DNA of 46,023 nucleotides from Cnuella takakiae. Lineage in GTDB: Bacteria; Bacteroidota; Bacteroidia; Chitinophagales; Chitinophagaceae. Below the pieces are notes generated by a model. The model saw only the letters and a program-made list of their open reading frames with translations, was not told the origin of the DNA and did no database searches. A program made the position numbers and the translations under genes. Shown here one piece after another: positions 3,224 to 46,023 of the stretch (the first letter of the stretch is position 1; each line of letters begins with the position of its first letter). The stretch spans positions 724,359 to 770,381 of the forward strand of contig NZ_MTFE01000010.1 of NCBI RefSeq assembly GCF_001953305.1. The letters are read 5' to 3'.

Positions 3224-3832
3224 ATGCTCATCCACATACATCCCCAGAACCCGCAGCCCCGTTTGATTCGCCAGGTAGCCGATGTGCTGCGCAAGGGTGG
3301 GGTGATCATTTATCCTACTGATACTATTTATGGCCTGGGTTGCGATATTCAGCATCAGAAAGCCGTGGAGCAAATCTGCCGCATCAAGGGTGTTGATCCG
3401 CAGAAGGCGCAGCTTTCCTTTGTGTGCCACGACCTGAGCCAACTGAGTGAATACGCCAAACAGCTGGCAACACCCGTGTACCGCACTTTGAAACAGTACC
3501 TGCCCGGGCCTTATACCTTTATTTTGGGTGCCAGCAAAAATGTACCTCGCCTGCTCAAAACCAAAAAAGACACCGTAGGTATCCGCGTACCCGATAATGC
3601 CATTGCCCGCTGTATTGTTGAGGAGTTGGGTAATCCCATTCTAAGTGCATCACTGCCGGGCGAATTTGTAGAAGAGTACACCGATCCGGAAACCATCCAC
3701 GACCGCTTTCATAAGCTGGTGGATATGGTGATTGATGGTGGCAATGGGGGCACCGTTCCATCCACCATTATTGATTTTACCGACGATGAGCCGGTACTGG
3801 TAAGGCAGGGGCTGGGTGAGTGGGACCAGTAA
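3224..3832 (+). CDS. YciO/YrdC/Sua5 family protein (L-threonylcarbamoyladenylate synthase-like)
   Basis: The protein has 202 residues and a YrdC fold. In this superfamily, TsaC/Sua5 makes threonylcarbamoyl-AMP for the t6A modification of tRNAs reading ANN codons. Visible hallmarks are the N-terminal KGGVIIYPTDTIYGLGCD segment, LPGPYTFIL and VGIRVPDN. The start MLIHIHPQNPQPRLI, the length and the end (STIIDFTDDEPVLVRQG) match the E. coli YciO branch better than TsaC, so its exact activity is less certain than the fold. ATG 3224 is chosen because homologues start here and a promoter-like TAATTTCG ends only three bases upstream (3213-3220). The gene is monocistronic and followed by a very strong hairpin. 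Confidence 0.88.
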   Translation: MLIHIHPQNPQPRLIRQVADVLRKGGVIIYPTDTIYGLGCDIQHQKAVEQICRIKGVDPQKAQLSFVCHDLSQLSEYAKQLATPVYRTLKQYLPGPYTFILGASKNVPRLLKTKKDTVGIRVPDNAIARCIVEELGNPILSASLPGEFVEEYTDPETIHDRFHKLVDMVIDGGNGGTVPSTIIDFTDDEPVLVRQGLGEWDQ

Positions 3833-3868
3833 CCGCAGATTTGTGTGAGTACAAATGATTTGTATGAA
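3831..3868 (-). repeat. Dispersed repeat, ACAAATCTGCGGTT family, inverted copy 2
   Basis: Reverse complement reads TACAAATCATTTGTACTCAC followed by ACAAATCTGCGGTT. It begins at the last base of the yciO-like stop codon and faces copy 3 (4041-4075) across the hairpin at 3987-4028. Confidence 0.7.
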
Positions 3869-3986
3869 CGTACCTACAACACTTCCTTTTTGATCATAGA
3901 AAGCGAAGTTTTTGTTTGCTGAAAAATATTGTATCTGAATTGGTAAATGTTGAGGATGTGCGCTTAGTGAGGTACAATTGATAGAT

Positions 3987-4028
3987 AAATAGCGAATGCC
4001 CTGCAGCACTGCAGGGCATTCGCTATTT
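3987..4028. terminator. Long perfect hairpin between convergent genes
   Basis: Arms 3987-4006 and 4009-4028 are a perfect 20-bp inverted repeat (AAATAGCGAATGCCCTGCAG and its complement) around two bases. The outer A/T-rich ends provide a T run in both directions, so it can end transcription from the yciO-like gene and from rnhB. It is flanked by facing copies of the ACAAATCTGCGGTT repeat, so it may also be the centre of a ~245-bp inverted-repeat element. Confidence 0.75.
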
Positions 4029-4040
4029 AGAAAGTAGTCT

Positions 4041-4075
4041 TACAAATCGTTTTCAATCACACAAATCTGCGGTTC
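4041..4075 (+). repeat. Dispersed repeat, ACAAATCTGCGGTT family, copy 3
   Basis: Near-identical to 62-96 in the same orientation and to 3831-3868 inverted. The remaining sequence to 4236 holds a weak AAACGCC/GGCGTTT hairpin (4080-4107) and no supportable gene. Confidence 0.7.
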
Positions 4076-5405: not shown

Positions 5406-6265
5406 TGCTGGTTGGGATAGGTTCTTTGGAGGTACTGCATTTCGGCAAGCAGGTGGCCCATGTGTTCGGTATGGATGCCTGCTTTTCCACCCTTCTGAAA
5501 AGGTTTATTGGTGGGCACTGTTAAGCCAGCTTCGCCAAACACCCGGTGGATGTGGTTTTGCCAGCTTACCTGCACCTCCTCCAAGCGGATGGGGATGCCG
5601 GAAGCGGCTGCATCCAATTCTATTTGGCTTGGTTCAAATAATTCTGCGGTATAAGGCCATAGTTCCGTAAGCGCCTTGTTGATGCGGCGGTTGCTCTCCT
5701 CCGTACCATCGCCCAGTCTGATCACCCATTCGGCACTCCAGCGCAGGTGATAGGTAACTTCCTTGATACCCTTTGCTGCAATGGCAGCCAGCTGTTGGTC
5801 GCTGCCCTGTGCCAACTGCTGAAACAGCGGCAATTGGTAAGCACTGAACAGGTACTGCCGTAAAATGGTAAAAGCCCAATCGCCCTTTGGTAGTTCACAA
5901 AGCAGCAGGTTCAGGTACTGCCTTTCGTCGCGTAAAAATGCAAGGTCGTCTTCCTGCAACTCGCGGTTGAAGGCTATCCAGGGCCGGGGCAATAAATTAT
6001 TAAAGGATGCTTTGCCTGCATCTTTGCTTTCGTTGTAAGCCTGTGCAGCATAAGCAAAAAAGTTGCGTGCCTGCCCAATCAGGTCCAGTGCGATATTGGT
6101 GATGGCAATGTCCTGTTCCAGTACCGGTCCATGGGCGGTCCATTCGGCATTGCGCTGACCAAGGACAAGGGCACTATCGGCCAGATGAAGGATAAAACCC
6201 CCTGTCCCCCTAAAGGGGGAACTTAGGCCGGAGTTCCCTGTATCCTTTGTAATTGTTTGCAGCAT
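5399..6265 (-). CDS. paaC: Phenylacetyl-CoA epoxidase structural subunit PaaC, with repeat-derived N-terminus
   Basis: PaaC is the ferritin-like partner that forms the heterodimer with catalytic PaaA and is itself redox-inactive. The body (LADSALVLGQRNAEWTAHGPVLEQDIAITNIALDLIGQARN... [24 protein letters not shown]) is a textbook PaaC. The first ~23 residues are not: residues 13-23 (GLSSPFRGTGG) are encoded by one arm of a palindromic repeat whose other arm lies in the paaB-paaC gap (element 6197-6352). The start codon ATG 6265 lies between the two arms. At 288 residues it is somewhat longer than the usual ~250. The repeat keeps frame, so the gene should still be functional. Confidence 0.93.
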   Translation of the reverse strand: MLQTITKDTGNSGLSSPFRGTGGFILHLADSALVLGQRNAEWTAHGPVLEQDIAITNIALDLIGQARNFFAYAAQAYNESKDAGKASFNNLLPRPWIAFNRELQEDDLAFLRDERQYLNLLLCELPKGDWAFTILRQYLFSAYQLPLFQQLAQGSDQQLAAIAAKGIKEVTYHLRWSAEWVIRLGDGTEESNRRINKALTELWPYTAELFEPSQIELDAAASGIPIRLEEVQVSWQNHIHRVFGEAGLTVPTNKPFQKGGKAGIHTEHMGHLLAEMQYLQRTYPNQQW

Positions 6266-6352
6266 GAAGTGTTATTGCTCTTGAAAATGAATGTTTATAT
6301 CTGAACTGGCAGGTTAGTCGACCTAAGTTCCCCCTTCAGGGGGACAGGGGGT
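6197..6352. repeat. 156-bp inverted-repeat element spanning the paaB/paaC junction
   Basis: Arms 6197-6227 and 6322-6352 are 31 bp each and match at 30 positions when one is inverted (core CCCCCTGTCCCCCT then AAGGGGGAACTTAGG). Each arm is itself a small palindrome. The left arm is translated in PaaC, the element contains the paaC start codon, and the right arm ends two bases before the paaB stop codon. The length is a multiple of three. It looks like a non-autonomous mobile or REP-like element. Confidence 0.8.
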
Positions 6353-6353
6353 A

Positions 6354-6749
6354 TCACATGTGTCCCACTTCGTCCGGCAGATCGTAAAATGTAGGATGGC
6401 GGTACACCTTGTCGTTGGCAGGTTCGTAAAAGCTTTCAGCATCATCGGGGTTGGAAGCATGTATGTATTTGCTTTCCACCACCCAGATGCTCACGCCTTC
6501 CTGCCGGCGTGTATATACGTCGCGGGCATTTTCAATGGCCATCTGTGCATCGGCGGCATGGAGCGAGCCTACGTGTTTGTGGTCGAGTCCTTGTTTGGAG
6601 CGGATGAAAACTTCCCATAAAGGCCAGGCAGCCCCTCCCCGGCCCTCCCCGGTGGGAAGGGAGTTGGGAGTGCCGTTCGATTCAGTTTGGCCGCCACCTT
6701 TGATGGCGTCGTAATCGCCGTAGTATTGTTTGTACGAAGGAAAGGTCAT
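6354..6749 (-). CDS. paaB: Phenylacetyl-CoA epoxidase subunit PaaB, with 41-residue repeat-containing N-terminal extension
   Basis: PaaB is a small subunit that helps hold the PaaAC heterodimers together. Residues 42-131 (WPLWEVFIRSKQGLDHKHVG, YTRRQEGVSIWVVESKYI, YRHPTFYDLPDEVGHM) are a complete PaaB, which normally has ~90-95 residues and begins at about this Trp. Residues 1-41 are extra: residues 28-41 (PNSLPTGEGRGGAA) are encoded by a GC-rich palindromic repeat at 6629-6667, and the preceding Tyr/Gly-rich part has no recognisable origin. No better start is visible next to WPLWEV, so the extension appears to be translated. It sits between paaA and paaC; the gap to paaA carries another dispersed repeat. 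Confidence 0.93.
   Translation of the reverse strand: MTFPSYKQYYGDYDAIKGGGQTESNGTPNSLPTGEGRGGAAWPLWEVFIRSKQGLDHKHVGSLHAADAQMAIENARDVYTRRQEGVSIWVVESKYIHASNPDDAESFYEPANDKVYRHPTFYDLPDEVGHM
6629..6667. repeat. GC-rich CCCCTCCCCGGCCC repeat inside paaB
   Basis: Contains CCCCTCCCCGGCCCTCCCC followed by a GGTGGGAAGGGAG end. It is nearly identical to the two arms at 45814-45848 and 45902-45936. Read on the coding strand of paaB it encodes NSLPTGEGRGGA, the same peptide given by the 45902-45936 copy. Confidence 0.85.
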
Positions 6750-6796: not shown

Positions 6797-6839
6797 GTTC
6801 TTTGTGCAACTTCCTGTCTTTGTGTCTTAGTGGTTCAAA
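6797..6839 (-). repeat. Dispersed CCACAAAGACACAAAGG-family repeat between paaA and paaB
   Basis: Contains CTTTGTGTCTTAGTGGTTC, the complement of the family consensus found at 9426-9562 and 45102-45175. It fills almost all of the 94-bp paaA-paaB gap and ends five bases from the paaA stop codon. Confidence 0.75.
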
Positions 6840-6843
6840 AAAG

Positions 6844-9425: not shown

Positions 9426-9562
9426 TTTGAACCACAAAGACAGGAAGGACACAAAGGTTCACGAAGGTTTGTTTTGTCTGTTTTCCATTTGCAGCAGATC
9501 GTTGCAAATCTTAAGGCAATCCCTTTGTGCTTCTTTGTCCCTTTGTGTCTTTGTGGTTCAAA
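9426..9562. repeat. Facing pair of CCACAAAGACACAAAGG-family repeats
   Basis: GAACCACAAAGACAGGAAGG at ~9426-9445 faces its near-complement, CTTTGTGTCTTTGTGGTTC, at ~9541-9560. The pair lies between the convergent GH30 and paaE genes and covers most of the 183-bp gap; no gene is supported here. It could form a long stem. Confidence 0.75.
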
Positions 9563-10847: not shown

Positions 10848-11062
10848 TGATAAAGCCTATAGGGCTTCAAGCTGAATAGCCGCCGGTGCAGCCGGCGGAT
10901 GGGCGTATCGTAGCATTTTCTTGCCCAACCCTGTAAGGGTTGAACCTTGCACCGGCTTATTGTTCAACCCTTACAGGGTTGGTTGTTTTACACATGTAGC
11001 CTGTTTGTTACCGCCGGTTGCACCGGCGGCTATTCCTATTTGAGCCCTACGGGCTCAATCTG
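10848..11062. repeat. ~214-bp nested palindromic element
   Basis: Two pairs of arms are nested. The outer arms run ~10848-10898 and ~11011-11062 and share AATAGCCGCCGGTGCA plus an AGCC(C/T)...GGGCT box. The inner arms are CCAACCCTGTAAGGGTTGAA at ~10925-10944 and its complement at ~10962-10982. The sub-blocks CCGCCGGTGCAGCCGGCGG, CAACCCTTACAGGGTTG and GAGCCCTACGGGCTC are each palindromic. The layout suggests a REP/BIME-like element mobilised in trans; no transposase lies in the window. Confidence 0.8.
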
Positions 11063-16953: not shown

Positions 16954-17964
16954 ATGAAAGTTGCTGTTGTGGGCGCAACCGGCCTGGTGGGCACCAAAAT
17001 GCTTCAGGTACTGGAAGAGCGCAATTTCCCGGTAAGCGAACTGCTGCCCGTAGCCTCAGAACGCTCGGTAGGTAAAGAAGTATTGTACAAAGGCAAGCCT
17101 TACAAGGTGGTGAGCATGGAAGATGCCATTGCTGCCAAGCCCGCACTGGCGCTGTTTTCGGCCGGCGGCTCCACTTCGCTGGAGTGGGCGCCCAAGTTTG
17201 CCGAAGCCGGTATCACCGTAGTAGACAACTCCTCGGCATGGCGTATGGACCCCACCAAACCCCTGGTGGTACCCGAAGTGAATGCCGACGCACTCACTGC
17301 CACCGATAAGATCATTGCCAACCCCAACTGCTCTACCATCCAGATGGTGGTGGCCCTCAACCCCCTGCATAAAAAATACGGCATCAAGCGCATCGTGGTA
17401 AGCACCTACCAGAGCGTTACCGGTACCGGTAAAAAAGCGGTTGACCAGCTGATGGGCGAACGTGCCAAGGCAGTTGCCGGCGCACAGGACGAGTATCCCA
17501 TGGCCTACAAATATCCCATCGACCTGAATGTAATTCCCCAGATCGACGTGTTCCTCGACAACGGCTACACCAAGGAGGAAATGAAGATGGTGAACGAGAC
17601 CAAGAAAATTATGCGCGACGAGTCCATTCGCGTTACTTCTACCACCGTTCGTATCCCTGTAATGGGTGGCCACAGCGAAAGCATCAATATTGAGTTTGAA
17701 AAGGACTTCGACCTCGCTGAAGTAAAAGAACTGCTGCGCACCTCGCCCGGTGTAACCCTGGTGGATGATCCTGCCAACGGAGGTTACCCTATGCCCATGG
17801 ATGCCCACGAAAAAGACGATGTATTCGTAGGCCGCCTGCGCCGCGACGAAAGCAATCCCAATACCCTCAACCTGTGGTGTGTGAGCGACAACCTGCGCAA
17901 GGGCGCCGCTACCAATGCCGTGCAGATAGCGGAGTACCTGGCAGCGCAGGGATTGTTGGGATAG
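16954..17964 (+). CDS. asd: Aspartate-semialdehyde dehydrogenase
   Basis: The enzyme reduces beta-aspartyl phosphate to aspartate semialdehyde with NADPH, the branch point to lysine/diaminopimelate, threonine and methionine. The 336-residue protein starts MKVAVVGATGLVGTKMLQVL (NADP-binding GATGxVG). It has the catalytic Cys126 in NPNCSTIQM, the dimerisation and substrate region (YQSVTGTGKKAVDQL) and the active-site His in GGHSESINIEF. Length is normal. ATG 16954 is chosen by the Rossmann start; the frame is open upstream through the leader terminator, which argues against an earlier start. It appears monocistronic, probably controlled by attenuation in its leader, and is followed by a terminator at 18051-18081. 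Confidence 0.96.
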   Translation: MKVAVVGATGLVGTKMLQVLEERNFPVSELLPVASERSVGKEVLYKGKPYKVVSMEDAIAAKPALALFSAGGSTSLEWAPKFAEAGITVVDNSSAWRMDPTKPLVVPEVNADALTATDKIIANPNCSTIQMVVALNPLHKKYGIKRIVVSTYQSVTGTGKKAVDQLMGERAKAVAGAQDEYPMAYKYPIDLNVIPQIDVFLDNGYTKEEMKMVNETKKIMRDESIRVTSTTVRIPVMGGHSESINIEFEKDFDLAEVKELLRTSPGVTLVDDPANGGYPMPMDAHEKDDVFVGRLRRDESNPNTLNLWCVSDNLRKGAATNAVQIAEYLAAQGLLG

Positions 17965-17973
17965 AGAGCGTTG

Positions 17974-18200
17974 GAAGTCCGGAAAGACAGTAAAGTCCGG
18001 AAAGACGGAAAAGACAGAAAAGACGAGAGAGACAGAAAAGAGTAAATACAAAAATGCCGGAGTGTTTTACTCCGGCATTTTGATTTTGCAATTTATTGCT
18101 GCGTTGCTGTTTAGAAGGAAAAGTTCAAATAAAAACCTCGTCTTTCCGGACTTTACTGACTTTTCCGTCTTTACTCTCTCTCCCGTCTTTCCTGTCTTCC
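17974..18200. repeat. Facing AAAGTCCGGAAAGAC repeats around a terminator
   Basis: Left block 17974-18035 carries AAAGTCCGGAAAGAC-type units several times; the right block 18139-18200 carries the complement (GTCTTTCCGGACTTTAC). They face each other across the terminator at 18051-18081 and ~57 bp of A/T-rich sequence, filling the gap between asd and the convergent SDR gene. The right block ends two bases before the SDR stop codon. Confidence 0.75.
18051..18081. terminator. Bidirectional terminator between asd and the SDR gene
   Basis: AAAATGCCGGAGT (18051-18063) pairs with ACTCCGGCATTTT (18069-18081), with A/T tracts on both sides so it can act for both convergent genes. Confidence 0.85.
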
Positions 18201-18202
18201 AA

Positions 18203-19036
18203 CTACTGGTACATCACACTCAACGCCACCTGCTCATTGGCATCCAAATCGGCCTGTACGGCACGCAGCTTGGCTTTGATGGCATCGAGGGAATGTTTGC
18301 CCAGGGGCAAGCGCAGGGTTTTGCCTTCGCCGTGTACAAAATCAACGATGGCATGGGCACCTTTTACCGGGTCGCCTTCCTGGCGGCCGTCGATGCGGCT
18401 GATATAGTGGTACATCTGCGCTACAGGCGTGGTCTTGTATTCGTCCATGCGGGTTCCTGCCAGCTTCACCGAGCTGCCTGCAAACTGGGTGCGGAAGGGA
18501 CCAGGCTGCACAATGGTAACTTTAATGCCGAAGGGACTTACTTCCTGCGCCAGGGCTTCATTAAATCCTTCGAGGGCAAACTTACTGGCATTGTATATAC
18601 CAAAACCACCGGTTGCTTTAAACCCAGCAGCGGAAGAAATAGCCAGGATATGCCCGGACTTCTGCTCCCGCATCAGGGGCAGCACCGCCTTGGTAAGGGC
18701 TACGGCGCCAAAGAAATTGGTTTCAAACTGGTCGCGGACTTCCTGCATCGAAAACTCTTCCACAGCCCCGATGGTGCCATAACCTGCATTGTTCACCAGC
18801 ACGTCGATGCGGCCAAACTGCTGCAGGGCACGCTGCACGGCGGCTTCGATTTGTGCGGGCTGGGTTACATCCAGCAGTACGCCGAGGCCTTTACCCTGGT
18901 GGGCTATGGTAAAATCGCTAGCCTGTGCCGCCTTGCGGAAGGTGGCAACTACCTGGTCGCCACGATCAATGGCTGCTTTTGCCAACTCGGCACCAAAGCC
19001 ACTGGAGGCCCCGGTGATAAACCAAACTTTATTCAT
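18203..19036 (-). CDS. Short-chain dehydrogenase/reductase
   Basis: The 277-residue classical SDR should be an NAD(P)-dependent oxidoreductase. It shows the cofactor motif TGASSGFG (8-15), NNAG (82-85), the catalytic Ser134/135 in AISSAAG and the catalytic Tyr148-Lys152 in YNASK. The C-terminal PGPFRTQF loop is typical of the YdfG/retinol dehydrogenase-like branch. The start ATG 19036 begins directly at the Rossmann fold (MNKVWFITGASSG); the frame is open to 19081 without support. Substrate is unknown. It is a lone gene between asd (convergent) and DUF2461, the latter separated by two palindromes. Confidence 0.92.
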   Translation of the reverse strand: MNKVWFITGASSGFGAELAKAAIDRGDQVVATFRKAAQASDFTIAHQGKGLGVLLDVTQPAQIEAAVQRALQQFGRIDVLVNNAGYGTIGAVEEFSMQEVRDQFETNFFGAVALTKAVLPLMREQKSGHILAISSAAGFKATGGFGIYNASKFALEGFNEALAQEVSPFGIKVTIVQPGPFRTQFAGSSVKLAGTRMDEYKTTPVAQMYHYISRIDGRQEGDPVKGAHAIVDFVHGEGKTLRLPLGKHSLDAIKAKLRAVQADLDANEQVALSVMYQ

Positions 19037-41646: not shown

Positions 41647-41666
41647 CTCTCTTGTCTATTTATTTT

Positions 41667-41702
41667 AAGAAAAAAGGTCATTGTGAAATGGCCTTTTTTC
41701 TT
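41667..41702 (+). terminator. Hairpin between the second susD and the FG-GAP gene
   Basis: AAGAAAAAAGGTCAT (41667-41681) pairs with ATGGCCTTTTTTCTT (41688-41702), one G-T pair included. The T run lies within the second arm, so it may end most transcripts of susCD before the next gene, only 27 bp ahead of that gene's start. Confidence 0.7.
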
Positions 41703-41729
41703 ATCCCTTATCATAGCTTTCCGGTGCGT

Positions 41730-44700
41730 ATGAAAAACTATTTGTGGCTTCTGTGTTTGCTGCTGGCTTGTGGGAAAAAACCGGAGCTTCCTGCCAACGG
41801 GTTGTTCCAGTTGCAGGAAAACAGTGGTATCAATTTTACCAACAAGGTGGAACACGATGCCAAATTCAATGTGTTCAGCTACCGCAACTTCTACAACGGC
41901 GGTGGTGTGGCCATCGGCGATATCAATAACGATGGCCTCGCTGATGTGTTCTTTACCGCCAACAGGAGCGATAACAAACTGTACCTGAACAAGGGCAACT
42001 GGAAGTTTGAAGATATCACCACTAAGGCAGGATTCAAGGCCAGCGGTAAATGGGGCACCGGCGTGGTGATGGTGGACATCAACAGCGATGGATGGCTCGA
42101 CATTTACGTGTGCAATGCCGGTTACCAGAAAGGTATTTCCAACGAAAACGAACTGTACATCAACAACCGCAACGGCACGTTTACTGAAGAAGCCGCCAAA
42201 TGGGGCCTCGCCGAAAGCGGCTATACTACCCATGCCGCCTTTTTTGATTACGACCTCGACGGGGACCTGGACTGTTATATTCTCAAGAACTCATTTCTGC
42301 CGGTAAATACCCTCAACTACGCCAACAAACGCGAGTTGCGTGCCGAAAACTGGCCCGTGCCCGATGTGGTGAAAGGTGGTGGCGACAAGCTGCTGCGCAA
42401 CGACGGCGGCCATTTCACCGATGTAAGCGAAGCCGCCAATATCTATGGCAGCCTCATTGGCTTTGGCCTGGGGGTAACCGTTGGTGATGTGAACGGCGAC
42501 CAGTATCCCGATATCTATATTTCCAACGACTTCTTTGAACGCGACTACCTCTACATCAACAAAAAGGACGGCACCTTTTCGGAAGAACTGGAGCAGTGGA
42601 CACAGCACATTTCGCACTCCTCGATGGGTGCGGATATTGCCGATATCAACAACGACGGGCACCCCGATATTTTTACCACCGATATGCTGCCCGGCGACGA
42701 CCTGCGCCTGCGCACCACCACCTCTTTTGAAAACTGGGATGTCAACCAGCTGAAGGTGCGTTCGGGCTTCTACAACCAGTTTCAGCAAAATACCCTGCAG
42801 GTAAACAATGGCGGGGGCAAGTTTCTGGAAACGGCATTTTACAGTGGGGTGGCTGCCACCGACTGGAGCTGGGGCGGCCTCATCTTCGATGCCGACAACG
42901 ACGGCCTTTCCGACCTTTTTGTGTGCAATGGCATTTACCACGACGTTACCGACCAGGATTTCATCGACTTTTTTGCCAACGAAGTGATCCAGAACATGGT
43001 ACTCACGGGTAAGAAAGACGAAGTGGACGGCGTGATCGGCAAGATGCCTTCGAGGCCCATTCCCAACCAGATGTTCCGCAACCGGGGCAACCTGCGCTTC
43101 AGCGATGAAACCACGGCCTGGGGCCTCGCAACCCCTTCCTTCAGCAATGGTGCCGCCTATGGCGACCTCGACAACGACGGCGACCTGGACCTGGTGGTGA
43201 ACAATGTGAACATGCCTTCCTTTGTGTACCGCAACCAGAGCCGCGAGCAGCTCAAGGATCATTATATCGGCATCCGCCTGCAGGGGGCTGCGCCCAACAG
43301 CTTTGCCATCGGCAGCACCATCAGGGTGTACAGCGGCGGCGTGATGCAAACCCGTGAGCTGGTACCCAGCCGGGGCTTCCAGTCATCAATTGATTATAAG
43401 CAGTTGGTAGGCTTAGGCAAAAATGCGGTTGTGGATTCGGTGGTGGTTACCTGGCCCGACCGCTCGGTGAGCGTGGTGCAAAAGCCTGCGGTTGATACGG
43501 TGCTCCTGCTGGCGCAAAAGGATGCAAAGTCGCGTGGGGCTATCATTGCCAAACCTGCCGTACAGCCACTGTTTGATTCGCTGGAGTCGGGTTTCGACAA
43601 GCATGTCGAGGACAGTTATGTAGATTTTTATTACGAACGCAATATTCCAGTCCTGCTCAGCCGCGAAGGGCCCAAGGCCGCCGCTGCCGACGTCAATGGT
43701 GATGGGCTGGAAGATGTGTATATCAGCGGTGCTGCCGGCCAGTCGGGACAACTGTACCTGCAAAATGCGGGTGGTGGTTTTGTAAAAAGACCCAACCCTG
43801 AGTTTGAACGCTTTGCACCACTTGAAGATGTAAGTGCGCTATTTTTTGATGCCGACAAGGACGGCGATGCCGACCTTTTTGTAGGCGCCTGCATGAGCCA
43901 GAAAGCCGACTTCGTGGGTGCCGGCCAAAACAGGTTGTTTAAAAATGACGGCAAGGGCAATTTCACGCTGGCGCAAAATGCGCTCCCCGGCGCCACCATG
44001 AACACCACCGCAGCCGTAGCTATGGATGCCGATGGGGACGGTGATACCGACCTGTTTATTGGCGGCCGCAATATGCCGGAGGATTATGGCATCGATCCTG
44101 CCAGCGCATTGTTTATCAACAATGGGCAGGGCAACTTTACCAACCTGCTGCGCGGCCCTGCTGCACAGATGGGTATGATCACGGGTGCTGCCGGTATCCG
44201 CCTGGCTAAAAACAGCGCCCCGGCACTGGTGGTGGCCGGCGAATGGATGGCGCCCCGCATCCTGCAATGGCAGGGCGGTACCCTCAAGGCTTTGCGCACC
44301 TCACTCGATACCTTGCAGGGATGGTGGCAGGCCCTCGAAACTGCCGACCTCGACGGCGACGGCGACGACGACCTGGTGCTGGGCAATATCGGCGAGAACT
44401 TCTACCTGCGTCCGGGCAAGACCAGTCCTGTAAAGCTGTGGGTCAATGATTTTGATGGCAATGGTGTAACCGATAAGCTCCTGTCGCGCACCGTGGCGGG
44501 CAGGGATATGCCGGTCTTCCTGAAGCGCGAGATCACCGAGCAGATCGTAAGCCTGCGCAAGGAAAACCTTAAACATGAAGCCTTTGCTGCCCGCTCCGTA
44601 CAGGACCTGTTCAGCGGAAAGCAGGTGGAAGCCAGCAAAGTCAAAACTTTTGATTATCCCTCGACGGTAATTGCCTGGAATGAAGGCGGCGGCAAGTTCC

Positions 44701-45047
44701 GCATCGAGAAACTACCCTTGCCGGTACAGTTGTCATCGGTACATGCCATCCTTGCCCGCGACATCAACGGCGATGGTGCTACCGACCTGATGCTGGGCGG
44801 CAACCTCTTTGGCCTGCTGCCCCAGTTTGGCAGGCTCGATGCTTCCTTTGGCCATGTGCTGATCAATACCGGTAATGGCAGGTTCCGCTACCTCCAGCCC
44901 CACGAATCGGGCGTGGAGCTGCGCGGCCAGGTGCGCGATATCTTGGCGGTACAGGGTAAGGGCAGGATGCAGTACCTGTTTTTGCAAAACGACGAAAAGC
45001 CGGTATTGTTTCGTCCCCGGCTGCAAGCCGTAGCAAAGCGTAAGTGA
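41730..45047 (+). CDS. FG-GAP/VCBS repeat lipoprotein with ASPIC/UnbV domain
   Basis: The 1105-residue surface lipoprotein (lipobox LLLACGKK, Cys14) is built of two beta-propeller-like halves. At least thirteen calcium-binding DxDxDG-type loops are visible, among them DINNDGLADVFF, DINSDGWLDIYV, DYDLDGDLDCYI, DADNDGLSDLFV, DLDNDGDLDLVV, DADKDGDADLFV and DLDGDGDDDLVL. Between the halves (~530-610) lies an ASPIC/UnbV segment (IGSTIRVYSGGV, ELVPSRGFQSSID, VTWPDRSV). Its function is not established; in Bacteroidota such genes commonly follow susCD pairs, which suggests glycan binding or a surface scaffold. ATG 41730 is chosen for the lipoprotein signal; the longer open frame begins inside the terminator. 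A paralogue follows 31 bp downstream. Confidence 0.9.
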   Translation: MKNYLWLLCLLLACGKKPELPANGLFQLQENSGINFTNKVEHDAKFNVFSYRNFYNGGGVAIGDINNDGLADVFFTANRSDNKLYLNKGNWKFEDITTKAGFKASGKWGTGVVMVDINSDGWLDIYVCNAGYQKGISNENELYINNRNGTFTEEAAKWGLAESGYTTHAAFFDYDLDGDLDCYILKNSFLPVNTLNYANKRELRAENWPVPDVVKGGGDKLLRNDGGHFTDVSEAANIYGSLIGFGLGVTVGDVNGDQYPDIYISNDFFERDYLYINKKDGTFSEELEQWTQHISHSSMGADIADINNDGHPDIFTTDMLPGDDLRLRTTTSFENWDVNQLKVRSGFYNQFQQNTLQVNNGGGKFLETAFYSGVAATDWSWGGLIFDADNDGLSDLFVCNGIYHDVTDQDFIDFFANEVIQNMVLTGKKDEVDGVIGKMPSRPIPNQMFRNRGNLRFSDETTAWGLATPSFSNGAAYGDLDNDGDLDLVVNNVNMPSFVYRNQSREQLKDHYIGIRLQGAAPNSFAIGSTIRVYSGGVMQTRELVPSRGFQSSIDYKQLVGLGKNAVVDSVVVTWPDRSVSVVQKPAVDTVLLLAQKDAKSRGAIIAKPAVQPLFDSLESGFDKHVEDSYVDFYYERNIPVLLSREGPKAAAADVNGDGLEDVYISGAAGQSGQLYLQNAGGGFVKRPNPEFERFAPLEDVSALFFDADKDGDADLFVGACMSQKADFVGAGQNRLFKNDGKGNFTLAQNALPGATMNTTAAVAMDADGDGDTDLFIGGRNMPEDYGIDPASALFINNGQGNFTNLLRGPAAQMGMITGAAGIRLAKNSAPALVVAGEWMAPRILQWQGGTLKALRTSLDTLQGWWQALETADLDGDGDDDLVLGNIGENFYLRPGKTSPVKLWVNDFDGNGVTDKLLSRTVAGRDMPVFLKREITEQIVSLRKENLKHEAFAARSVQDLFSGKQVEASKVKTFDYPSTVIAWNEGGGKFRIEKLPLPVQLSSVHAILARDINGDGATDLMLGGNLFGLLPQFGRLDASFGHVLINTGNGRFRYLQPHESGVELRGQVRDILAVQGKGRMQYLFLQNDEKPVLFRPRLQAVAKRK

Positions 45048-45078
45048 TGTTGTTGCAGAAAACCTTAATCGATTGATC

Positions 45079-46023
45079 GTGTTCACCTCAATATTTTCTC
45101 GCCACAAAGACACAAAGGCACTAAGCAGCACAAAGGTTTTCTTCGTGCTTCCTTTCTGTCTTTGTGTCTTAGTGGCCCAAATCCTCGCAGGTTGCACCAC
45201 CAAAAAGCAACCGGCCCTGTTCACCGTTCGCGACCACAACCAGACGGGGCTTCACTTTACCAATACCCTCAAGGCCACACCCGAGTTCAACATGTTCAAA
45301 TACATGTATTTCTACAACGGGGCGGGCGTGGGTGCCGGCGATTTCAACGGCGATGGCAAAACCGACCTGTTCTTTTCGGCCAACCAGGGTCAGAACAAAC
45401 TCTACCTGAACAAGGGTGCACTTAAGTTTGAAGACGTGACCCAAGCTGCGGGCATCCCCCAGGACGGCGGCTGGAGTACCGGTGTATCGGTAGTGGATAT
45501 CAATGCCGACGGGCTGCTGGATATCTACGTGTGCCGGGTAGGCAATTTCGAAACCCTCAAAGGCAAGAACCAACTCCTGATCAACAAGGGCCTGCGCAAT
45601 GGCATACCTCATTTTCAAGATGAAGCCGCAGCTTACGGCCTTGATTTTTCCGGCTTCAGCACCCAGGCAGCTTTTTTTGATTACGACCTGGATGGCGACC
45701 TCGACTGCTACCTCCTCAACCACTCGGTGCACCAGAACGGCACTTTTGCGGAGCGCAAAGTGTTTATGGGCACCACCCACCCGCTGACGGGCGACCGGAT
45801 TTATGAGAACAGGAGCCCCTCCCCGGCCCTCCCCGGTGGGGAGGGAGAAGGAAAGACCCTGCGAAACAAATCAAGTCAATCCCTCAATAGCGGAGGCTCC
45901 AACTCCCTCCCCACCGGGGAGGGCCGGGGAGGGGCTGCTTTTGTCGATGTTACCCCCTCCACCGGCATCAACTCCTCTGCCATTGGTTACGGCTTTGGCA
46001 TTGCCATCGGCGATATCAACCTT
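45079..46023 (+). CDS. FG-GAP/VCBS repeat lipoprotein, second copy, cut by window end; signal peptide and an internal segment are repeat-derived
   Basis: The frame is open to the window edge (315 codons). It is a paralogue of the preceding gene: GVGAGDFNGDGKTDLFFSAN, VVDINADGLLDIYVC, FFDYDLDGDLDCYL and IGYGFGIAIGDIN align with it. No ATG is available near the start. GTG 45079 gives a basic n-region (SRHKDTKALSSTK), a hydrophobic core (VFFVLPFCLCVLVAQIL) and a lipobox LAGC; GTG 45145 would leave no basic residues. Most of this signal peptide is encoded by the dispersed repeat at 45102-45175. Residues ~246-286 are encoded by the 123-bp element at 45814-45936, which sits between two conserved stretches (GDRIYEN and FVDVTPSTGIN). 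The frame is intact, so it is called a gene rather than a pseudogene. Confidence 0.82.
   Translation, partial: MFTSIFSRHKDTKALSSTKVFFVLPFCLCVLVAQILAGCTTKKQPALFTVRDHNQTGLHFTNTLKATPEFNMFKYMYFYNGAGVGAGDFNGDGKTDLFFSANQGQNKLYLNKGALKFEDVTQAAGIPQDGGWSTGVSVVDINADGLLDIYVCRVGNFETLKGKNQLLINKGLRNGIPHFQDEAAAYGLDFSGFSTQAAFFDYDLDGDLDCYLLNHSVHQNGTFAERKVFMGTTHPLTGDRIYENRSPSPALPGGEGEGKTLRNKSSQSLNSGGSNSLPTGEGRGGAAFVDVTPSTGINSSAIGYGFGIAIGDINL
45102..45175. repeat. Facing CCACAAAGACACAAAGG-family repeats encoding a signal peptide
   Basis: CCACAAAGACACAAAGGCAC (45102 on) faces CTTTCTGTCTTTGTGTCTTA with a GTGG end (45152-45175). This is the same family as 6797-6839 and 9426-9562. Here the sequence is in frame with the FG-GAP gene. 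Confidence 0.85.
45814..45936. repeat. 123-bp inverted-repeat element inserted in frame in the FG-GAP gene
   Basis: Arms 45814-45848 and 45902-45936 (35 bp each, 34 matching when inverted; core CCCCTCCCCGGCCCTCCCC) frame 53 bp. The element is exactly 41 codons and has no stop codon in the reading frame used. The left arm encodes SPSPALPGGEGEG and the right arm NSLPTGEGRGGA, the latter identical to the repeat peptide in PaaB. Confidence 0.9.

Follow-up and report, generated by a model that had tools for sequence, protein, structure and literature searches.

Introduction

Inteins and intron-borne homing endonucleases place a nuclease in conserved host genes, at the same sites in several species. 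The RPEs of Rickettsia are another kind of insert, and a biased reading frame is one of their properties. They are palindromes of about 150 bp that lie in frame in unrelated genes and encode a conserved peptide; the accessible text of two reports names no enzyme that mobilises them (PMC10969869, PMC6649704). REP, BIME and REPIN sequences with RAYT consist of hairpin units, often in inverted pairs. According to the available part of one study they are sometimes intragenic and then code for 20-30 residues (PMC3733652). Finally, Caulobacter VsrA carries the Pfam domain DUF559 and belongs to the PD-(D/E)XK superfamily, and the available sections of its description mention neither arms nor insertion into a host (PMC12907096).

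Here we analyse a palindromic element in a window of 46,023 nucleotides (the whole stretch of DNA under study) from Cnuella takakiae. Elements of its type are likewise in-frame palindromes in unrelated genes, and they show the biased reading frame of such coding palindromes. They resemble RPEs in these described features, but belong to another phylum and have a nuclease-bearing long form, which the accessible RPE texts do not mention (PMC10969869, PMC6649704). REP sequences are similar in their hairpin units and inverted pairs; in contrast, the arms described here have no GTAG/CGTC tag, and no Y1 transposase lies near them in the C. takakiae genome. The nuclease of the long form has the same Pfam domain as VsrA, DUF559. 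Like an intein or a homing endonuclease, it is inserted in conserved host genes, at the same sites in several species. Unlike an intein, it shows no splicing domain in Pfam scans of its hosts, seems to be retained in the host protein and is framed by palindromic arms.

Results

A translated palindrome in an FG-GAP gene

The 123-bp palindromic element occupies 45814..45936 on the plus strand and is read in the frame of its host gene as (R)SPSPALPGGEGEGKTLRNKSSQSLNSGGSNSLPTGEGRGGA. An inverted-repeat search finds a pair of 48-nt arms at 45814-45936, 90% complementary and separated by a 45-nt spacer. The preliminary description of this DNA, made from the sequence alone, gave 35-bp arms with 34 matches and a length divisible by three. 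Both figures stand after recomputation: 34 positions pair, and 123 = 41 x 3. Whether folded as DNA or as RNA, the element is more stable than 200 of 200 shuffles (z about -10).

The left arm core (45815..45847, minus strand) is antisense to the host gene, in frame A1, and its peptide is SPALPGGEG. The right arm core (45903..45935, plus strand) is sense, in frame S2, and reads NSLPTGEGRGGA. A single arm in paaB (6631..6663, minus strand; sense, frame S2) had been said to be translated identically, and it does give NSLPTGEGRGGA. This arm lies upstream of the PaaB domain (Pfam, residues 42-128) of paaB (6354..6749, minus strand). Matches to the 17-base core pattern number 5 across the window, against 0.09 expected; 2 of the 5 are the palindromes read on the opposite strand.

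The 5' part of the host gene (45073..46023, plus strand) encodes an FG-GAP protein (Pfam FG-GAP_3), and the gene runs beyond the window past a 10-N stretch. Its paralogue upstream (41652..45047, plus strand; Pfam FG-GAP_3 and UnbV_ASPIC) is without the element. That the flanks of the element are conserved in this paralogue is confirmed by alignment, and they are also conserved in orthologues of the genus that lack the insert. Past the 10-N stretch the host gene matches the paralogue in one open frame, up to residue 1113 of 1131. Since this stretch, just outside the window, has a nominal length, continuity of the host gene across it is unproved. A pseudogene is unsupported, as there is no sign of one apart from this caveat. 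N runs are found near or beside palindromic arms (beyond 46023, at locus L025, and at the left arm of locus L274); hairpins perhaps broke the assembly, though the runs may also be masked sequence.

A second palindromic element, of another subfamily (ACCCCCTGTCCCCCT..), lies at 6197..6352, with no strand assigned, between paaB and the gene that follows (paaC by reading). One of its arms is in frame near the start of that following gene, reading LSSPFRGTGGF, and the other adjoins the stop codon of paaB. At locus L275 a free-standing DUF559 gene is bordered by similar arms. More inverted-repeat pairs in the window (10849-11060, 17964-18203 and 3831-4075) are possibly other mobile palindromes. A dispersed repeat reading about CTTTGTGTCTTTGTGG occurs in both orientations, at 9522-9562, 6810-6841 and 45102-45181.

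Frames of the arms in the C. takakiae genome

At up to three mismatches the hairpin occurs 22 times in the 5.7-Mb genome. Eighteen of the 22 arms are within genes, 14 sense and 4 antisense. The preliminary description called for a genome-wide check of the frame, and the outcome favours it: all 14 sense arms are in S2 (NSLPTGEG-like) and all 4 antisense arms in A1 (SPALPGGEG-like), counting N-terminal, C-terminal and degenerate arms, which were placed by reading the proteins. Under a strict internal rule, only 9 of 19 longer arms are internal (6 S2, 3 A1). Two of the 14 sense arms are degenerate (3 mismatches). Other frames were indeed available, as had been claimed: each of 12 arm cores examined is free of stops in all six frames, and so are 17 of 19 longer arms of this genome.

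Six of the 14 sense arms lie near the N-terminus (PaaB, HemF, MurD, MurG, acetolactate synthase and an EVE-like protein). Here the true start could fall downstream of the arm, and a short extension could easily be borne. The remaining eight are internal, for example in DNA polymerase I, between its exonuclease domains. One of the four A1 arms forms the C-terminus of the gene adjoining HemF. By Pfam or by reading, the hosts are DNA polymerase I, PaaB, HemF and its neighbour, MurD, MurG, Mfd, 3-hydroxyacyl-CoA dehydrogenase, acetolactate synthase, a GSCFA protein, an aminotransferase, the EVE-like protein, an ATP-dependent DNA ligase and two FG-GAP proteins with the arm at the same site. Four arms are in no gene frame (1604061, 1608271, 2075067 and 2286991).

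The hairpin pattern, at up to two mismatches, has a match in 8 of 18 genomes of the genus, C. takakiae included. The other carriers have 1-7 copies each, whereas C. takakiae has 20. Hence the arm set has multiplied in its own lineage. The same ACC-loop arms are carried by Niastella (N. yeongjuensis among them), other Chitinophagales/Chitinophagaceae, a Bacteroidetes bacterium and one Prolixibacteraceae (33 stretches, a set from which the records closest to our genome may be absent).

Orthologues without the insert

The FG-GAP site lies between conserved GDR.YRN-type and F.DVT-type blocks. Seven of the eight best orthologues in the genus are 38-39 residues shorter here, and the eighth is 28 shorter. 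The DNA ligase insert is absent from 10 of 10 orthologues in the genus, each 42 residues shorter. Likewise, 9 of 9 orthologues lack the aminotransferase insert, seven being 19 residues shorter and one 13, with the ninth judged by eye. Lengths here and at the MetH site (below) follow a motif rule; those of L253, L256 and L227 come from alignment, that of L359 was read by eye, and L361 was left out. What we find is in-frame insertion in unrelated coding genes. With regard to target-site duplication, the orthologues are too diverged to place the insert ends to the base.

Frame bias across the family

A wider arm pattern matches in 52 of 394 family genomes. Together with those of the searches above, the matches listed (for the richest genomes, those in the first places) yield 222 distinct arms in 178 loci. 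We call an arm internal if at least 50 open codons with a coding-like score lie on both sides. Frames are called from the codon usage of the flanks only, and a second frame qualifies in 2 of 90 internal arms.

These 90 internal arms of the 222 listed divide into 51 S2, 29 A1, 6 S1, 4 A0, 0 S0 and 0 A2, which places 80 of the 90 in just two frames, S2 and A1. The listed internal arms sit in 69 ORFs and 37 protein clusters; S0 or A2 is used in 0 of the 37. If the arms were independent, a chi-square test would give p about 1e-25, but they are not fully so, as paired arms and orthologous sites are counted more than once. The missing frames are mostly stop-free (S0 in 160 of 222 and A2 in 181 of 222 listed arms), and we therefore reject the view that the frame is due to avoidance of stops alone. 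The idea put forward beforehand, that a readable frame without stops was selected for or designed, is supported by the frame bias in the C. takakiae genome and in the family. A likely reason for the frame is that translation of the nuclease-bearing forms itself passes through the arms.

Cluster 0 is not a single protein family; it joins LeuRS and IcmF, we think because both share DUF559. Nine related proteins have up to three S2 arms each (L077, L156, L167-L170, L172, L174 and L176), and a Pfam scan of one member of this cluster gives no match.

Not all listed arms can be placed within genes: 95 of the 222 are in no callable coding frame. These 95 belong to the 132 listed arms that are not internal; 20 lie on the N side of a gene and 21 on the C side (4 on both). 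N- and C-side arms have mixed frames, and the N-side arms in S0 (3) and A2 (1) have no upstream ATG. In 6 of the 21 listed C-side arms, all A2, the host stop codon stands directly before the outer arm end (L030, L047, L049, L147, L177 and L182).

Lengths divisible by three inside genes had been expected as well. The listed arms contain ten facing pairs, in four of which both arms are internal. The core span falls in class 1 modulo 3 in these four, in the window pair and in one pair with a single internal arm. In the remaining four pairs the classes are 0, 1, 0 and 2. Thus five pairs read in one coding frame, and a sixth with one arm called, agree on one class and four other pairs are mixed, in a check that largely restates the frame result.

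A DUF559 nuclease between palindromic arms

A Pfam scan of an IcmF host locates DUF559 (PF04480, Vsr-like) between two arms. In the C. takakiae genome a DUF559 search gives four matches: MetH (by reading), two free-standing genes and one helicase. Both free-standing genes lie between palindromic arms. In MetH, DUF559 is flanked by arms of the design of the window element. Its open frame can be followed into the host only to the right, since an N stretch lies to the left.

DUF559 is found at E<=0.001 in 33 of 40 chosen family genomes. We fetched loci (weak matches and a few strong ones left out) with 79 distinct domains, the helicase L277 being dropped. Forty-two of the 79 are in frames of at least 190 aa, and 12 entered the set because of their arms. 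Of 78 loci (L306 has a short flank and was left out), 59 have inverted repeats around DUF559 that surpass each of 390 shuffles, and in 43 the repeats reach at least 40, compared to 0 of 143 control segments 900 bp from DUF559 that reach 40. No repeat above the shuffles is present in 19 of the 78. Without the 12 loci fetched for their arms, repeats exceed every shuffle in 47 of 66 and reach at least 40 in 35 of 66. Among controls for the loci fetched irrespective of arms, 0 of 125 are above 27 and thus above the shuffles.

Sixty-seven loci were fetched for DUF559, 30 in frames of at least 190 aa and 37 free-standing. The sequence beyond the arms is coding-like on both sides in 16 of the 30, on one side in 13 (including terminal insertions, contig ends and N runs) and on neither in 1. 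Where repeats are present, the frame is open through both arms in 29 of 32 long-frame copies and through either side in 0 of 27 free-standing ones, a partly circular split, since frame length sets the classes and 12 of the 32 entered the set through their arms.

Genomes with arms contain DUF559 at E<=1e-15 in 17 of 21 cases versus 12 of 19 for genomes without, a weak difference; the arm status of G002 comes from the scan of the genus. Since there are other types of arm, co-occurrence over genomes tests the link poorly. Strong DUF559 matches are missing from the arm-rich genomes G289, G233, G312 and G247. A search across the phylum detects DUF559 at E<=1e-15 in 63 of 148 genomes; 30 of 138 listed matches lie in open frames of at least 200 aa. 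Repeats are above 27 in 19 of 29 DUF559 domains of a phylum sample and at least 40 in only 5 of 29, with thresholds taken from the family test and not from shuffles of the phylum loci.

Beside the DUF559 genes of C. takakiae itself we find no A- or B-type arm; the nearest is 24 kb away. The link to the window copy therefore rests on architecture and on relatives: the architecture is the same, and B-type arms do occur beside DUF559 in relatives. In the IcmF genes of L070, L092, L141 and L299, B-type ACC-loop arms like those of C. takakiae are 59-63 nt from DUF559. These IcmF arms are rearranged, and the left arm seems to be part of a separate insertion. In four LeuRS copies (by reading; L079, L120, L207 and L210) the arms around DUF559 read A1 on the left and S2 on the right, which are the frames of the window element. 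L207 has an additional A0 arm.

Hosts and kinship of the nuclease

By Pfam, DUF559 hosts include IcmF (two sites), LeuRS (several sites), MetH (two sites), tryptophan dioxygenase, CinA, a MiaB-like radical SAM protein, peptidase M23, TrpA, an amino acid kinase, chorismate synthase, HsdM and a DUF5522 protein. The host of L073 is not LeuRS, as Pfam gives IcmF domains. In chorismate synthase, tryptophan dioxygenase and the radical SAM protein the host Pfam match is split into two stretches.

Domain match and conserved motif residues both point to a PD-(D/E)XK DUF559 nuclease. Alignment columns E17, Q39, D58, E71, D73 and H77 are conserved in 40-42 of 42 embedded copies, and the motif residues are kept in long-frame and free copies alike. 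By analogy with the superfamily these residues are presumably catalytic. The copies are related to the solved endonuclease-like protein 3hrl.

In a tree of DUF559, frames of at least 190 aa are clustered (10 changes versus 26.5 shuffled), with few branches well supported. The copies of LeuRS and chorismate synthase are close kin in this tree. This kinship implies that the element has travelled from one gene to another, unrelated one.

The MetH site can be read in 15 of 16 loci of the genus. In thirteen of the 15, SL.DF and.MGAF are 12-27 residues apart; an APSPSEGEERG stretch occurs in one of these short linkers, and one linker was read by eye. In L351 and L358 the linkers have 58 and 64 residues of SP/GGGR-type sequence and no nuclease. 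The site in C. takakiae has arm, DUF559 and arm. In G056, from another genus, DUF559 is at the same site in one open frame, with no repeat above shuffles (L289). Judged from these sequences, the series fits a cycle of insertion, nuclease loss and decay, whose order is unproved.

Discussion

We consider it probable that the window element is a non-autonomous short version of a Bacteroidota mobile element that enters coding genes and persists there as translated sequence. In the long form a palindromic arm is followed by a DUF559 nuclease (Vsr-like, PD-(D/E)XK) and an inverted palindromic arm. Embedded in a host, the long form would keep a single open frame through both arms. Insertion into a loop or linker would then give a host with an extra nuclease domain, with nothing spliced out of the host protein. 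Short forms such as the 123-bp copy keep the arms and lack the nuclease, and short copies are presumably derived from long ones.

Sequence comparison establishes several parts of this reading: a frame bias, in-frame inserts where orthologues are insert-free, arms around DUF559, and DUF559 that lies in frame inside hosts with its motif residues retained in embedded copies. Spread may be homing-like: the nuclease, in cis or in trans, would cut target or arm DNA, and repair would copy the element. We infer that a DUF559 nuclease mobilises the window element. The element would be tolerated in frame because a single open frame spans arms, linkers and nuclease. Arms inherited by short copies would give Gly-, Pro- and Ser-rich linkers in the nuclease frame. 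The frame bias may then result from arms that code for linker-like peptides in this frame, together with purifying selection after insertion; selection after insertion must act too.

If the element were simply an in-frame coding palindrome like the RPEs of Rickettsia, it would insert at random and survive in harmless frames, with DUF559 as a passenger. The two absent frames encode peptides with HRR or RW, some arm-rich genomes are without strong DUF559, and RPEs themselves lie in frame in many genes, as the accessible texts report (PMC10969869, PMC6649704). We nevertheless regard a passenger nuclease as unlikely, because the arms recur around DUF559 in the family and the phylum, free-standing copies included, and around DUF559 embedded in some twelve families of host protein.

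That these are REP/REPIN sequences mobilised by a RAYT (Y1) transposase is very unlikely. Inverted pairs of hairpin units do resemble REP dimers, two Y1_Tnp genes are present in the C. takakiae genome, and the available part of one study describes intragenic REPs that code for 20-30 residues, many of them in replication and repair genes (PMC3733652). However, the arms are accompanied by no conserved GTAG or CGTC tag (0-3 of 19 arms in C. takakiae and 1-12 of 222 listed arms, per tag and side), and the two Y1_Tnp genes of this genome have no arm closer than 70 and 101 kb. With the genes distant and the tags absent, we reject a RAYT/REP origin. Removal of the insert before or during protein synthesis, as an intein, an intron or a translational bypass, could make use of the long stable hairpin predicted in the mRNA. 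Yet it would make the frame preference needless, the inserts are open in the host frame, and Pfam scans of embedded hosts show no splicing domain. We hold such removal to be very unlikely.

Returning to the mobile nuclease element, the short form is a new case of in-frame coding palindromes, a kind already known; intragenic REPs are known as well. Our search of the literature on DUF559 and related topics, mostly of papers open without subscription, found no description of a splice-free nuclease between palindromic arms in host genes. On balance we lean towards a wider reading: selfish nuclease elements would home into essential Bacteroidota genes and persist there unspliced, as a translated and catalytically intact domain whose arms code for linkers, and short copies would be debris or dependants that reshape core enzymes.

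A nuclease-bearing long form with the same arm design offers a concrete, testable mover for coding palindromes. If the proposal is true, it shows how a parasite can occupy essential genes without splicing. Many database proteins of the phylum (LeuRS, MetH, IcmF, PolA and others) would then contain an inserted parasite peptide.
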